A stretch of DNA of 64,000 nucleotides from the NCBI GenBank assembly GCA_019359175.1, contig JAHHHU010000002.1:248001-312000 (forward strand). Direction: 5' to 3'. Shown here in pieces: positions 39,504 through 47,900 of this stretch (the first letter of the stretch is position 1; each line of letters starts with the position of its first letter). Made by a program: the position numbers and the translations under genes. The notes under the pieces are model-generated. The model had not been told where the DNA came from. It made no database searches and saw only the letters and a program-made list of their open reading frames with translations. The DNA is from Phormidium tanganyikae FI6-MK23. GTDB taxonomy: Bacteria > Cyanobacteriota > Cyanobacteriia > Leptolyngbyales > Leptolyngbyaceae.

Positions 39504-41495
39504 ATGAGCGTGAATTATCAGAACCTACTCATTCTGACTGCCAGCATCCTACTGGTTTCTCTATTGTTCGATCGCTGGTGGCGGGAACGAGTTTACGACC
39601 TGCAAGGTAAAATTGTCCTGATTACAGGCGGCTCACGCGGGTTGGGGTTAGTGATGGCGCGTCAGCTTATTGCGTCAGGCGCACGATTGGCGATTTGTGC
39701 GCGAGATCAAGCCGAACTTCAGCGAGCGCAAACAGAGTTAGAGCAACGGGGCGGGGAGGTTTTGGCGTTAACCTGTGATGTTACCGATCAAACGCAAGTC
39801 GAGCAAATGATCCAGCAGGTAAACGATCGCTTCGGCTCGATCGACATTCTGATCAACAATGCCGGAACTGATATTATCAGCCCGCTAGAAAACCTCACGA
39901 TGCAGGACTATGATGACCTGATGAAGCTGCATTTCTGGGCATCGCTCTACACCAGTTATGCTGTTCTTCCAGGAATGCAAGCGCGTAAAGCAGGGCGGAT
40001 TGTTAACGTTTCCTCGATCGGGGGCAAAATCGCATCGCCGCACATGGTCGCATACTGTGCGAGTAAATTCGCACTGGTAGGACTCTCGGAAGGAATGCGA
40101 ACAGAACTGGCAAAAGATGGAATCGCAGTGACAACGGTTTGCCCCGGATTTATTCGCACTGGAGTTGTCGATCACGGGATTATTAAAGGTCAGAACCGCA
40201 AAGAGTTCGCTTGGTTTAGCATTGGTGACTCGTTGCCGATTGTTTCAGCTAGTGCAGAAAAAGTTGCTCGATCGACGATTGCGGCACTCCGTCGAGGTCA
40301 AGCTGAAGTGATTGTGCCGTTTCCAACCTGGCTATCTGTGAAACTGTACGCCTTGTCGCCAGCATTGATGACGAATGTGCTGAGTGTCGTGAATTTGCTT
40401 CTACCGAAACCAGGTGGAATTGGCACAGAGAGAGCATTCGGCAAAGATAGTCATTCTAAATGGGTGCCTTCTTGGTTCACTGCTTTAAGCGATCGTGCAG
40501 CGCGTCGAAACAATGAGATCCCAGTTACAGAACCAAAAAGTACAACTACCGTTCAGCCGATCGAATCCGAAGTGCGATCGCAAAAACAGCTTGAACCCGA
40601 TCAAGGGAAAGCCCCCATTTCTGAGAACAATTCAGATAGTTTTGCGATCGTTGATCCTGCTAAAGCTTCTCCAGAAGTTCAAGCTTGCTTAAGTGAGATT
40701 CAAGATACGTTAGGCATTCCTTGGACACCTGCAAACTGGCGTGCTTATGCGATCTATCCTTCAGTGATGCAATTGTTTTGGAAACGGCTCAAACCTGCGA
40801 CGCAAACCGAAGCTTTTTTGGAATCTGCGATCGCCATTACCGAGCAAGTCTATCGCGACATTGATGACTGGTATCAGCCGAACTATCAAATCGAAGTCGA
40901 TGCTGGACAACAACGCCAAATTCGACGGGAACTGAATGCGTTTAGTTTTGGTAATCCTCAATTGCTGATTCAACAAATCGCATTAAGCCGCACGCTAGCG
41001 GGTGAAGTCGTTGGCGAAGATGGTAAAGCAGACCTGCGGCGCGGTCCTAATGCCTATCGTCATCCAGAAATTCAAATGATTTCTGAACAGTCAGTTAGAG
41101 AAATTTCGGCAGAAATGCAGCAGATCTATCAAGATATTCAGCAAACTTTGGGAGTCCCGATCGTTAATTCTGATTATCAAGCTCTTGCCCGCTGGTCTGC
41201 TTTCTTTATCGCTGCTTGGGAAGATATCAAACTTTGGCGCGATCGACCCGAATATCATCTGCTAAAACAGTCGATCGTGCAAAGAGCGAATAATGCTGCA
41301 AGTCGGCTTCATCCTGCGGTGTTTGTTGGAGAACAAGAAGTTCGCGATCTGCTCGACAATCCCGAAGACTTTGAGCAACTTCAGCAGAGGGTGCAACTGT
41401 TCACAGACATTTTGCCAGAACTGATTATTCAAAATGCTCTGTTTCACATGGGATTAGCAGGCATTCAACCCGCGACTCTGACTGATAAAGCCTAA
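39504..41495 (+). CDS. Membrane-anchored SDR fused to a DehI-type dehalogenase domain
   Basis: A 663-residue two-domain protein. Residues 7-22 form a single membrane anchor. Residues 34-300 are a classical short-chain dehydrogenase: TGGSRGLG (41-48), NNAG (118-121), catalytic Ser170/171, Tyr184 and Lys188. After a charged linker (about 330-375), residues about 378-655 resemble the DehI-type 2-haloacid dehalogenase domain, built of two repeats with matching openings: SPEVQACLSEIQDTLGIPW and SAEMQQIYQDIQQTLGVPIV. The linked reactions might process a hydroxy or halo acid, but no substrate can be named. The gene follows two remnants and precedes another SDR 26 bases on, suggesting an operon in an accessory patch. 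Confidence 0.82.
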   Translation: MSVNYQNLLILTASILLVSLLFDRWWRERVYDLQGKIVLITGGSRGLGLVMARQLIASGARLAICARDQAELQRAQTELEQRGGEVLALTCDVTDQTQVEQMIQQVNDRFGSIDILINNAGTDIISPLENLTMQDYDDLMKLHFWASLYTSYAVLPGMQARKAGRIVNVSSIGGKIASPHMVAYCASKFALVGLSEGMRTELAKDGIAVTTVCPGFIRTGVVDHGIIKGQNRKEFAWFSIGDSLPIVSASAEKVARSTIAALRRGQAEVIVPFPTWLSVKLYALSPALMTNVLSVVNLLLPKPGGIGTERAFGKDSHSKWVPSWFTALSDRAARRNNEIPVTEPKSTTTVQPIESEVRSQKQLEPDQGKAPISENNSDSFAIVDPAKASPEVQACLSEIQDTLGIPWTPANWRAYAIYPSVMQLFWKRLKPATQTEAFLESAIAITEQVYRDIDDWYQPNYQIEVDAGQQRQIRRELNAFSFGNPQLLIQQIALSRTLAGEVVGEDGKADLRRGPNAYRHPEIQMISEQSVREISAEMQQIYQDIQQTLGVPIVNSDYQALARWSAFFIAAWEDIKLWRDRPEYHLLKQSIVQRANNAASRLHPAVFVGEQEVRDLLDNPEDFEQLQQRVQLFTDILPELIIQNALFHMGLAGIQPATLTDKA

Positions 41496-43351: not shown

Positions 43352-43801
43352 TTAGAGAATGGTCAGATAAGTTTCGGTTGCTTCGATCGGTAAAACCTTC
43401 AGCGTTTGATTCTTCAAATCTGGCTCTAATCCCATCGCTTCAAGCGGAATCACCCCTAACACTGCACTTCCTCCACCCGGCAACTCAAGGCATTCAAACG
43501 TTCCGTCGCGTCCGCTGATCGAGAGTTTTGCATCCTGAAAAATGCGGGCGCTCCCAATTCCCATCGCCGTTTCGGCCGTCACTTCTCTCGCGAGTTCTAG
43601 CCCTAACTGCTCGATAACACTGGCGGGTAGGCACAGCATTGTTGCACCCGTATCGGCTAGAACATTTTGTAGCGTGATTGATCGAATGTTCGCTTCAGGA
43701 ATCACACCATTTCTTGCCAGAATTTGATCCGCGCGATTTGTCACCGTGATCGTTGTAAAAACCTTGCCCATCATTGAATGCTCATTTGTTGCAGGGTGCA
43801 T
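43352..43801 (-). CDS. Retropepsin-like aspartic protease
   Basis: A 149-residue single-domain protein with the catalytic LADTGATMLCLPASVIEQLG (Asp-Thr-Gly-Ala-Thr) and the hydrophobic flap/turn VLGVIPLEAMGLEPDLK typical of bacterial retroviral-type clan AA proteases, which act as dimers. A strong ribosome site (AGGAGG, about 4 bases before the ATG at 43801) fixes the start. No signal peptide. These proteins are frequent in cyanobacteria. The substrate is unknown. Confidence 0.85.
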   Translation of the reverse strand: MHPATNEHSMMGKVFTTITVTNRADQILARNGVIPEANIRSITLQNVLADTGATMLCLPASVIEQLGLELAREVTAETAMGIGSARIFQDAKLSISGRDGTFECLELPGGGSAVLGVIPLEAMGLEPDLKNQTLKVLPIEATETYLTIL

Positions 43802-43913: not shown

Positions 43914-46079
43914 GTGCGCGGATTCTTTGCGGTTTTATTTGCGATTCTGATTTGGTTTTATGCAGTTCCTGTTGAAGCAGCACAACCGGAACGACTGCCG
44001 CTGACTTTGGAATTGTTGCAGGAAAGATTGCGATCGCCGATTCCGAGTGAAGGGACGCGGATCGTGGATCTCAGACGAATGGAAATCGATTTACGTCCTG
44101 AAAATGCCGCGTTTCGGGATCAGTTTTATAGTTTGGTGCAGGCGCAACTTCAGCGATCGGGGGTGCCGTTGGGGTTGGATTTGAGCTATTCGCTGATCAA
44201 TGGGGACTTTACGACGAGTAAGTTGGGATTGCGTGCGCCGATTTACGACGGGGAAGCATTATCGAAGTTGTTTACGCCCGCAGAACAAGAACAGCTAAAA
44301 CGAGATCGTAGACGTTTATACCGATTGAGTACGCTATCTACATCGCTGCTGATTACACCGAGAGAAACGGGAACTGCAACATCTCTGCAATTAACTGTTT
44401 TTCGTGCGCCGATCAAATTAGTGCAAACGAGAATTATAGGATTTGCAGATTTAACCAATACATTTTTTCTCAATCGGGTGGAAGCACAGGGAATGCAATT
44501 TCCAGCAGGAGCAGATTTTTCACAATCGCGATTTAGTTTGCCGATGAGTTTTGCGAGTGCGAATTTTGGTCGAGAGGTGCAGTTTCGTAACACTATCTTT
44601 TTTGCCAAAGCGGAATTCAATCAAGTTCAGTTTCGAGGGGAAGTGAACTTTCAAAGCGCAGAATTTCAGACGACTGCAAATTTCAATCAAGCCATGTTTT
44701 ATCAACCTGCAAATTTTAGTAGAGTGCAGTGGCAAGGAAACGCGGATTTTGCTCAAACGCGATGGCGAGATCAAGCGAATTTTATCAAGGATAAATTTAG
44801 TCGATCGCTTTTTTTGACCGATGCAACTTTCGAGAAAGCGGCAGTGTTTCGAGAAGCGCAGTTCAATTCATTGGCAAATTTGCGCGGGGCAACGATTCTC
44901 GATCGAGCCGATTTTAGCTATTGTAGTTTCGCAAAAGGTGCGTATTTGAATGTTCCGGGACTGCGATTTGATTCGGATAAAGCGAAAATTTTGGGCGATC
45001 CGGGACAGATTGGGCGAGTGATTTCAGTGCCAACGCTTCAAGGCAACGAGAATTTATTGCGCGAATTGGTGCGAAATTTTCGTCGATTAGAACAGATTTC
45101 TGATGCGAATCAAATCGATTACACGACGCAGACTTTACGATCGCGGCAACTCCGCCGCCAGCTTTTCGGCACTGATCTCAACACCGCAGATTTAGCGAAA
45201 TTAAAACAAATCGGATTCAGTGAAACTCAAGCAAACTCGATCATTCAACGCCGCATTGAGCAACCCTTTCGGAATCTAACCGAACTGCTCACCCTCGATC
45301 AAATTGGCATTGCGACTTATATTAACGTCCGCGATCGCGTGATTGCTGCTGATCCATTACCGCCTGCCTTGAATCTCTGGCGACGATTCTCGATCGGATT
45401 TCGCTGGATTAGTTTAAGTCTTCTTTTATTGCTGAGTCGAGACGGAACTAGCTTTTGGCTAATTTTTGGAATTGGACTGGTGACGGTTTCGTATTTCAGC
45501 GTTTTGTTTTGGTTTGTTGATCGAGTGCGGCGGCGTTATCCGAAAGCAATTTTGCCGACGTTTTCTGAAATTGTTTCGACGGTTAGTTTCGCGATCGTGC
45601 TGTTTTTGCTCGGCTTAACTGCAATTATTCAAGCCACCGATCGTCCTTTGATTACGGTGCTGTGGTGGTCGATCGTGGTGATCCCTGTGCCGTTGATTCT
45701 GCTTGGAGTCCTGTATCAGCGAGGACGCTATCACGCGCTGATGGAGGTCAGCTACTTTTCGGAAGAAGGCACACTGCGGCAGTTGAGAATTCTCGTCGGG
45801 AGACTGCCCACGATTCCGAGATATCCCCTATTTCGAGAGCGATATCTGCCGATTTTGTGGGATCGACAATGGAACTGGTTGAACTATTTTGACTTTAGCC
45901 TCAACAATTTTCTACGCTTTGGCTTTAATGATATTCGCCTGCGAGATCAGCACCTACCTGGAATTGTTTCGATTCTCGTGTGGTATCAATGGGCGTTGGG
46001 CACGCTGTACATCGCACTATTATTGTGGACGCTCTCGCGGACGATTCCAGGACTCAACCTCTTGATTTACTTTAAGTAA
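43914..46079 (+). CDS. Pentapeptide-repeat protein with helix-hairpin-helix and membrane domains
   Basis: A 721-residue exported or membrane protein starting at GTG. Signal peptide (MRGFFAVLFAILIWFYAVPV EA). Residues about 185-345 contain pentapeptide-like repeats of the A-x-F-x-x type (GADFSQSRF, ANFNQAMF, ADFAQTRW, ATFEKAAVF, ADFSYCSF), forming a right-handed beta-helix. Residues about 415-460 are a helix-hairpin-helix unit (TDLNTADLAKLKQIGFSETQ), like the ComEA HhH. Then come four or five membrane helices (about 480-620 and 690-715). The combination is unusual. A periplasmic or luminal scaffold anchored in the membrane is a reasonable guess. Function unknown. Confidence 0.8.
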   Translation: MRGFFAVLFAILIWFYAVPVEAAQPERLPLTLELLQERLRSPIPSEGTRIVDLRRMEIDLRPENAAFRDQFYSLVQAQLQRSGVPLGLDLSYSLINGDFTTSKLGLRAPIYDGEALSKLFTPAEQEQLKRDRRRLYRLSTLSTSLLITPRETGTATSLQLTVFRAPIKLVQTRIIGFADLTNTFFLNRVEAQGMQFPAGADFSQSRFSLPMSFASANFGREVQFRNTIFFAKAEFNQVQFRGEVNFQSAEFQTTANFNQAMFYQPANFSRVQWQGNADFAQTRWRDQANFIKDKFSRSLFLTDATFEKAAVFREAQFNSLANLRGATILDRADFSYCSFAKGAYLNVPGLRFDSDKAKILGDPGQIGRVISVPTLQGNENLLRELVRNFRRLEQISDANQIDYTTQTLRSRQLRRQLFGTDLNTADLAKLKQIGFSETQANSIIQRRIEQPFRNLTELLTLDQIGIATYINVRDRVIAADPLPPALNLWRRFSIGFRWISLSLLLLLSRDGTSFWLIFGIGLVTVSYFSVLFWFVDRVRRRYPKAILPTFSEIVSTVSFAIVLFLLGLTAIIQATDRPLITVLWWSIVVIPVPLILLGVLYQRGRYHALMEVSYFSEEGTLRQLRILVGRLPTIPRYPLFRERYLPILWDRQWNWLNYFDFSLNNFLRFGFNDIRLRDQHLPGIVSILVWYQWALGTLYIALLLWTLSRTIPGLNLLIYFK

Positions 46080-46373: not shown

Positions 46374-47900
46374 GTGATGAGGGTACCTGTGAAAAGCGTC
46401 AATCAACGTCCGGTTAAGAAGAAAGCTCAACCCACTCAAAACGGGGCAAAAGCAGGACAGCCCAAATCGGGGCAACTCAAATCGGGGCAACTCCGTAAAA
46501 AGAAACCTGCAAAGCGATCGAAAGGAATGCGATTGCTATTTATGGCGCTTTCTCTTAGCGGAATTGCGATGATTTCTGCCACTGCGGGAGCGCTTCTCGC
46601 CGTTTCTCTTGCCAGTACGCCTTTGATGCAGCGGCAACTCTCACCCTCTGAAGCTTCGATTTTTGGAAAAGGCAATCGCTTTTCTACCGGGATGAGCCTG
46701 CAACTTCCTGCTTTAACTCGCCCTGTTAATATTCTTGTTCTCGGTACGAAAGTTCTCACGACAGATATCGGTGATGCTCCCACAGAACTGAAAAAGCTTC
46801 CGTATCAAGCATTAGTCAATTCTTTCGAGGGTTTGACGGATACAATGCTACTGCTTCGATTTGACCCGGAGAGCAAAAAAGTCGTCGTGATGTCGATTCC
46901 GCGTGATACTCGCACCTACATCGCGGAACACGGCATGACTAAGATCAATGAAGCGAATTATCATGGTGGCCCTGCCCTGAGCGCGAAATCTGTGAGTGAA
47001 CTGCTCGGTGGCGTGGGTATCGATCGATATATCACAATCAATGTTCAAGGCGTTCAGGCGCTCGTTAATGCGTTGGGCGGTGTCACTGTCCACGTTCCCA
47101 AAGATATGAAATATCAGGATGATAGCCAGCGGCTATACATCAATCTCAAAGCTGGACGACAAGAGCTAGACGGCAACAAAGTGCTGCAACTCTTACGCTA
47201 TCGGCATGATGAGAATGGTGATATTGGGCGAATTCAGCGGCAACAAATGGTGATGCGTGCCCTGATGGAACAATCGCTTAATCCCTCTACGGTTTCGCGT
47301 TTTCCGAGTTTGCTTGGCGTGGTTCAATCGCACATTGATACAAATCTCACCGTTGAAGAACTGGTCGCGCTGGTCGGATTTGCCTCGCAGGTGAATCGAT
47401 CGAATACTAAAATGCTGATGGTTCCGGGAGAGTTTAGCTCACCTGGGGAATATAAAGCGAGCTACTGGTTGCCGAAACCCGATCGCATCAAGGAAATGAT
47501 GGCGCAGTACTTCAATTTTGGGACAGCGAGTTTAGAAGCGAGTGATCCTGCATCGCTCAAAGTGGCAGTCCAAGACAGTACTAAGCAAGCCAAGAGTGTT
47601 CAGACTGCAATGTCAGCTTTGACCAAGGCGGGATATGGCAATGTTTACGAAGGGCAGGAATGGAGTGAGCCTTTGAGTGTGACTCGGATTGTGGCGGAAT
47701 GGGGTGATGTCAGTAGCGCTGAGGCGATTCGGCGGGCATTGGGCTTTGGAGAAGTGCGGATCGAAAATACGGGCGATCTGCGATCGGATATCACGGTGCA
47801 ACTGGGTAAGGATGCGTTACAGCCAAAGAAAACGGTGAAGCGTCCGACATCGGAACAGACTCCGGATAAGCTGCAACCTGCGAATAAGTTGTCGAATTGA
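46374..47900 (+). CDS. LytR-CpsA-Psr (LCP) family cell-wall polymer ligase
   Basis: A 508-residue protein. A basic, repetitive N-terminus (AGQPKSGQLKSGQLRKKKPA) precedes one membrane helix (about 50-75). The extracytoplasmic LCP domain (about 110-310) has TDTMLLLRFDPESKKVVVMS, IPRDTRTYI, KINEANYHGGPALS and LRYRHDENGDIGRIQRQQMV with its catalytic Arg/Asp cluster. A C-terminal LytR_C domain (about 390-475) follows. LCP proteins attach polysaccharides to peptidoglycan or lipid carriers. The start is GTG 46374 or ATG 46377; a GTG at 46389 would also fit. A hairpin follows the stop. Confidence 0.93.
   Translation: MMRVPVKSVNQRPVKKKAQPTQNGAKAGQPKSGQLKSGQLRKKKPAKRSKGMRLLFMALSLSGIAMISATAGALLAVSLASTPLMQRQLSPSEASIFGKGNRFSTGMSLQLPALTRPVNILVLGTKVLTTDIGDAPTELKKLPYQALVNSFEGLTDTMLLLRFDPESKKVVVMSIPRDTRTYIAEHGMTKINEANYHGGPALSAKSVSELLGGVGIDRYITINVQGVQALVNALGGVTVHVPKDMKYQDDSQRLYINLKAGRQELDGNKVLQLLRYRHDENGDIGRIQRQQMVMRALMEQSLNPSTVSRFPSLLGVVQSHIDTNLTVEELVALVGFASQVNRSNTKMLMVPGEFSSPGEYKASYWLPKPDRIKEMMAQYFNFGTASLEASDPASLKVAVQDSTKQAKSVQTAMSALTKAGYGNVYEGQEWSEPLSVTRIVAEWGDVSSAEAIRRALGFGEVRIENTGDLRSDITVQLGKDALQPKKTVKRPTSEQTPDKLQPANKLSN

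Follow-up and report, generated by a model that had tools for sequence, protein, structure and literature searches.

An exported beta-helix protein family of Cyanobacteria with a ComEA-type HhH domain lacking GxG hairpins and a highly conserved membrane module

The stretch of DNA analysed here (the window, 64,000 nucleotides of Phormidium tanganyikae) encodes a 721 aa protein of a cyanobacterial, essentially single-copy family, in which an exported beta-helix and an HhH domain are joined to a membrane module. We propose that the beta-helix forms an extracytoplasmic platform on this orphan membrane module, with the HhH acting as an optional adaptor for protein contact, a reading to which we give an even chance. 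A platform for protein assembly is likelier than a device for DNA uptake, because the HhH has lost its DNA-contact loops. The proposal stays close to the protein contact and "surface assembly" that a preliminary description, made from the sequence, had suggested beside DNA uptake.

Gene and family distribution

The ORF given in the preliminary description is exact, with a GTG start one codon past an in-frame stop, and the signal peptide, beta-helix, HHH_3 domain and membrane region ascribed to it were all recovered (Table 1). Pfam assigned Pentapeptide_3 (PF13576, E-value = 3.7e-19) and HHH_3 (PF12836, E-value = 6.4e-7, residues 421-475) to the 721 aa protein, both above their cut-offs, and no domain to its final third. 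The NCBIfam search gave no match, and the sequence search of the PDB gave a single weak one, to an HhH region (E-value = 0.033). Among open PMC papers searched in full text, no paper was found on a protein combining these parts, and the suggestion of an unstudied envelope protein is borne out in the form of an unstudied envelope or lumen protein.

Table 1. Coordinates of the gene, its parts and its downstream neighbor in the window
Feature	Position	Strand	Basis
Entire coding sequence	43914..46079	+	721 aa and stop; GTG start; orthologues with 42-88% identity
Signal peptide, residues 1-23, AxA-like cleavage site	43914..43982	+	80/80 rows with N-terminus
N-terminal exported part, residues 24-165	43983..44408	+	Falls with the beta-helix in the aligned model range 28-363
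F-rich right-handed beta-helix, residues 166-345, 11-residue (5+6) repeat	44409..44948	+	PF13576 3.7e-19; lag-11 periodicity; fold match
Long helix from beta-helix to HhH, residues 380-418	45051..45167	+	AF2; low confidence in first half
ComEA-type HhH without GxG hairpins, residues 419-478	45168..45347	+	PF12836 6.4e-7; Foldseek; GxG 0/70
Helix 484-507, proposed as a non-crossing helix at the outer surface of the membrane	45363..45434	+	AF2, charge balance; inference
Membrane helix 513-535, then K/R-rich loop	45450..45518	+	Averaged hydropathy, AF2
Two membrane helices, 552-574 and 578-602	45567..45719	+	Averaged hydropathy, AF2
Highly conserved loop 603-684, WNWLNYFDFSLNNFLRFGFNDIRLRD near its end	45720..45965	+	Alignment conservation
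Final membrane helix and near-invariant C-terminus WTLSRTIPGLNLLIYFK	45966..46076	+	Alignment conservation
LytR-CpsA-Psr (LCP) glycopolymer transferase, downstream neighbor	46374..47900	+	Pfam; adjacency in 11/65 loci

In searches with the whole protein, 123 of the 291 class genomes had a match and 168 had none, and a profile of the membrane part, built from 39 sequences, matched 154 of 388 genomes. Most matches to this profile are frames of similar length, the shorter ones coming from fragmented assemblies, and no second architecture was found among the matches listed, as judged by frame length and an aligned subset. Three genomes of P. tanganyikae's own family, each at least 95% complete (G156, G183 and G230), lack the family, G183 giving a weak match to the HhH region only (E-value = 0.0025). 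In genome G371 (L112, L114-L117) a remnant of the gene carries several stops and apparently also lacks the HhH, indicating decay in one lineage. Being missing from three near-complete genomes of the same family and broken in G371, the gene is conserved but dispensable; the 168 class genomes with no match, together with the broken copy, argue that it is not essential.

The alignment started from 88 ORF hits, of which 74 rows, the window protein among them, were left once redundancy was removed (locus L089 yielded no orthologue ORF). Subsets of 58 and 39 of the 74 were also taken, and seven further loci brought the set to 81 proteins. Conservation climbs toward the C-terminus, the mean majority identity over the 74 proteins being 0.63 for the repeats, 0.58 for the HhH domain and about 0.85 for residues 651-721. 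Fifty columns are invariant among 58 sequences, 38 of them within residues 486-721; columns of the HhH could not count as invariant, because three of the 58 sequences lack it. The C-terminal membrane module is the most conserved part of the protein. Between the window protein and six near relatives, dN/dS was 0.03-0.14 wherever computable, HhH included.

Export signal and beta-helix

A hydrophobic N-terminal stretch followed by an AxA-like site, scored by this simple rule and not by a trained predictor, is present in all 80 rows with an N-terminus (the 81st, L080, is truncated), in agreement with the export proposed earlier. The exported part that follows was modeled by AF2 with a pLDDT mostly of 55-90 (about 45 at residues 141-160) and contains the invariant residues D59, F71, Y72 and G97.

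In the beta-helix, Phe and Trp recur at alternating five- and six-residue steps. Hydrophobic autocorrelation of the window protein gave z values of 7.8 and 7.2 at lags 11 and 22 but of 3.1 and -1.3 at lags 5 and 10, and lag 11 exceeded lags 5 and 10 in 81/81 orthologues (median z of -0.5 at lag 10); in four classical pentapeptide proteins used as controls, lags 5 and 10 were present and lag 11 was absent. A test for hydrophobic i+5 runs found none in the window protein, because the repeat alternates 5+6. What had been called a pentapeptide beta-helix is thus a beta-helix by PF13576 and by the AF2 model, but its period is 11 residues and not five.

The pLDDT of the model is about 90 across the repeat, and VIA-align superposed the beta-helix on the pentapeptide protein 6fls_D (Z 16.4, rmsd 2.9, 189 aligned). 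Tailspikes, polysaccharide lyases and other right-handed helices score like pentapeptide proteins, and since they match equally well the fold says little on function. The VIA-align list for the full-length model covers residues 28-363 only, so that missing rows for the membrane and HhH regions are uninformative. Mimicry of DNA by the beta-helix in the manner of Qnr and MfpA, raised in the preliminary description, is unlikely because the helix is not acidic: its net charge is +4 in the window protein and +1.9 on average in the orthologues, and only 13 of 74 are net negative.

HhH domain

The HhH is genuinely related to the ComEA type. The long helix that leads to it holds the invariant residues L385, F389, R390 and D397, and the domain itself scores 29.8 bits with HHH_3 against a cut-off of 27, the same profile matching 55 of 58 members at E-values up to 0.1. 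When the model was submitted to Foldseek no match reached an E-value of 0.001; the top row for the HhH was ComEA (8dss_B, prob 1.00, E-value = 0.12), followed among HhH folds by PsbU (7n8o_U, prob 0.98, E-value = 0.77). Comparison of the HhH profile with single target sequences by hhalign gave 94.7% for the HhH of a phospholipase-D-like protein of the same genome and 12.2% for the one PsbU sequence used.

These similarities, together with the position of the HhH outside the cytoplasm, would suit a DNA-uptake factor in which the HhH holds incoming DNA in the periplasm, like ComEA, but we consider such a role highly improbable. The occurrence of conserved GxG hairpins in the orthologues had been named beforehand as the deciding point, and GxG occurs in 0/70 orthologues in hairpin 1 and likewise 0/70 in hairpin 2. 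Hairpin 1 reads GFS, with G434 in 70/70, and hairpin 2 reads IDLATY, with Asp at position 465 in 57/70. The net charge of the domain is 0 in the window protein and +1.1 on average, and no competence gene was recognized among the gene clusters common to at least four neighborhoods. Furthermore, 7 of the 81 proteins have no HhH at all. A tree built without the HhH, which was obtained by a quick method and is unrooted with long branches, separates them from the other proteins at a single branch (SH-aLRT 99), and one gain or one loss of the domain suffices. Loss of GxG does not strictly exclude binding of DNA; the DNA contact and DNA uptake envisaged in the preliminary description nevertheless find the hairpins and the HhH-less proteins against them, and the HhH now most likely binds a protein partner.

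The same genome also encodes an exported phospholipase-D-like protein (L094:1495-3063, C13), with a lipoprotein-type signal recognized by eye, whose canonical HhH keeps GIG and GVG. By these motifs it is a likelier candidate than the family for an HhH that binds DNA outside the cytoplasm.

The genome further encodes PsbU, a photosystem II protein that is exported and has an HhH fold. As the next HhH fold match, PsbU could suggest that the family supplies a thylakoid-lumen factor using its HhH as PsbU does. This appears improbable, as the HhH profile lies nearer to the ComEA type by the hhalign values above and the family is unmatched in most genomes of the class, whereas PsbU-like photosystem II parts are widespread. 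The PsbU profile PF06514 found no match in the window protein or in 58 members.

Membrane module

Hydropathy averaged over 74 orthologues delineates membrane segments at about 513-535, 552-574, 578-602 and 685-710, confirming the membrane helices and anchor noted previously. The mean number of K+R per loop is 4.2 at 534-551 and 9.6 at 602-655, and 1.1 at 573-580 and 1.7 at 709-721. With four crossings and an exported N-terminal half, the loops 534-551 and 602-655 would lie inside, and the loops 573-580 and 709-721 would lie outside together with the HhH. The extracytoplasmic HhH of the preliminary description agrees with this arrangement, in which the signal peptide and inward K/R-rich loops go together. 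If helix 484-507 spanned the membrane, the K/R-rich loops would end up outside, and it was therefore assigned to the outer face. AF2, run with nine input sequences, modeled the module poorly (pLDDT <60 for most residues of the module in the full-length model, and 46.5 when it was modeled alone), and for this reason the number of helices and their topology were derived from hydropathy and charge.

No convincing Pfam or PDB match was found for the membrane module, and its comparison with plasmid records gave no match. Residues 657-719 are dense in invariant polar and aromatic positions, which would fit a C-terminal module acting as a membrane enzyme, a pore or a redox-linked device regulated from outside by the beta-helix and the HhH; we regard this as possible, if unlikely. 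The lack of any PDB sequence match to the module counts against it. As for the pore, SLNNFLRFGFNDI recalls a channel filter by eye, but Ion_trans_2 was not among the 22 families obtained with 39 members at E-values up to 10, and a C-terminus of the ion-channel type was rejected; ion channels of the same genome were compared by eye only.

Another group of beta-helix-like proteins (L125:1921-3213, L127-L132) shares a conserved membrane tail that reads SLDTF-P..D..Q...W, then WF....GW. A search with a consensus led to two of these proteins, one of which led to six more. The Acaryochloris tail protein is annotated as hypothetical and has no Pfam match. For a possible kinship between the membrane tail of the family and that of these Acaryochloris/Nonomuraea-type proteins, hhalign gave a probability of about 1% or less with a shallow profile of eight rows.

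Gene neighborhood

Genes were called as the longest non-overlapping ORFs in the 67 loci, of 74, that were long enough. Most neighbors are not conserved, and among the clusters common to at least four loci only a PIG3-like NAD(P)H quinone oxidoreductase and the LCP transferase stood out. In the window, the family gene is directly preceded by a divergent gene (43,352-43,801, minus strand) for a small clan AA aspartic protease, retropepsin-like, with a TIGR03698 match below the cut-off (4.7e-8). Further upstream, a 663 aa ORF (39,504-41,495, plus strand) begins as a short-chain dehydrogenase and continues into a C-terminal half that looks different by eye.

In 14 of 64 loci, spread over several families and both HhH forms, the family gene is immediately preceded by the PIG3-like gene in the same orientation; the two are separated by -4 to 135 bases, and by at most 36 bases in 11 of the 14. 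Together the two genes look like an old operon, whose PIG3-like member the lineage of the window lost or never had. This arrangement speaks for a C-terminal module acting as an enzyme, a pore or a redox-linked device, but the upstream neighbor in the window itself is not a PIG3-like oxidoreductase, and the PIG3-like proteins score under the curated PIG3 cut-off.

The LCP gene is directly downstream in 11 of 65 loci, with gaps of 198-362 bases. Such adjacency, and the similar Z with which the beta-helix aligns with polysaccharide-binding helices, could point to the assembly of cell-wall or surface glycopolymers together with the LCP transferase. We find this doubtful, given that all LCP-linked loci belong to one 14-row clade including the window and that gaps of this length leave an operon undemonstrated. 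An analogous pair has been reported in Synechococcus elongatus, where Synpcc7942_1360/1361 are adjoining LCP and exported pentapeptide genes, and disruption of the next gene, a predicted murein-peptide ligase, resulted in elongated cells (PMC7464499). This pair is resembled by an LCP gene of genome G011 (L145:1501-3142) followed by a 167 aa exported classical pentapeptide protein. The G011 protein however falls outside the family (profile score of -0.2), so that the published pair may be unrelated. The primers of PMC7464499 were not found in the G011 LCP/pentapeptide locus either, and orthology of Synpcc7942_1361 to the family is not supported. Neither the LCP nor the PIG3-like adjacency fixes a function.

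Proposed role

For the platform proposed here, a Sec-type signal would export the N-terminal half to the periplasm or the thylakoid lumen, where it would fold into an extended beta-helix with a Phe core and a repeat of 11 residues. The linker helix would connect it to a ComEA-derived HhH, absent from one clade of the family, whose phosphate-binding hairpins are replaced (GFS, IDLATY) and which most likely binds a protein partner. The functional core would be the C-terminal module, which has about four predicted crossing helices and a K/R-rich loop and is nearly invariant over its last 70 residues; it probably serves to dock into, or to nucleate, a membrane complex, which the beta-helix would display outside. 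A bolder proposal, which we hold to be unlikely, is that the C-terminal module constitutes an undescribed cyanobacterial membrane machine (an enzyme, a pore or a redox-coupled assembly center) controlled from outside by the beta-helix and, usually, an HhH sensor or adaptor.

In the HhH, a domain made for gripping DNA would have been put to another use without the loops that contact DNA, a case for which the HhH-less clade provides a natural control. Because the family is widespread, occurs in single copy, is exported and carries a near-invariant membrane module, it is a good subject for a deletion with a readable phenotype.

Comparison with known systems

The HhH of the family resembles the ComEA-type (HhH)2 (PF12836) in sequence, fold, NLNTA-like start and extracytoplasmic site, but differs in having no GxG, in the Asp of hairpin 2, in its location within a large membrane protein and in its absence from one clade. 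PsbU, encoded in the same genome, is likewise exported and has an HhH fold, but it is small and soluble, with a weak profile similarity to the family HhH. Its role lies outside DNA binding. NosD of the NosDFY transporter, in row 29 of the fold list with a Z of 14.5, resembles the family in linking a beta-helix with a membrane complex, although no sequence relation is shown. NosD is periplasmic and a separate polypeptide from its membrane partner.

With pentapeptide proteins (PF13576, PF00805) the family shares the right-handed beta-helix, at Z of about 14-16 to AlbG, QnrB1 and MfpA. It differs from Qnr, MfpA and AlbG in its 11-residue period, its export, its non-acidic character and its HhH and membrane module. 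The biochemical functions of cyanobacterial pentapeptide proteins are called almost completely unknown in PMC8145042. According to the same source, HglK of Nostoc is also a cyanobacterial membrane protein with a pentapeptide region, but there four N-terminal membrane helices precede the C-terminal repeats (PMC8145042), whereas in the family this order is reversed and the beta-helix is exported.
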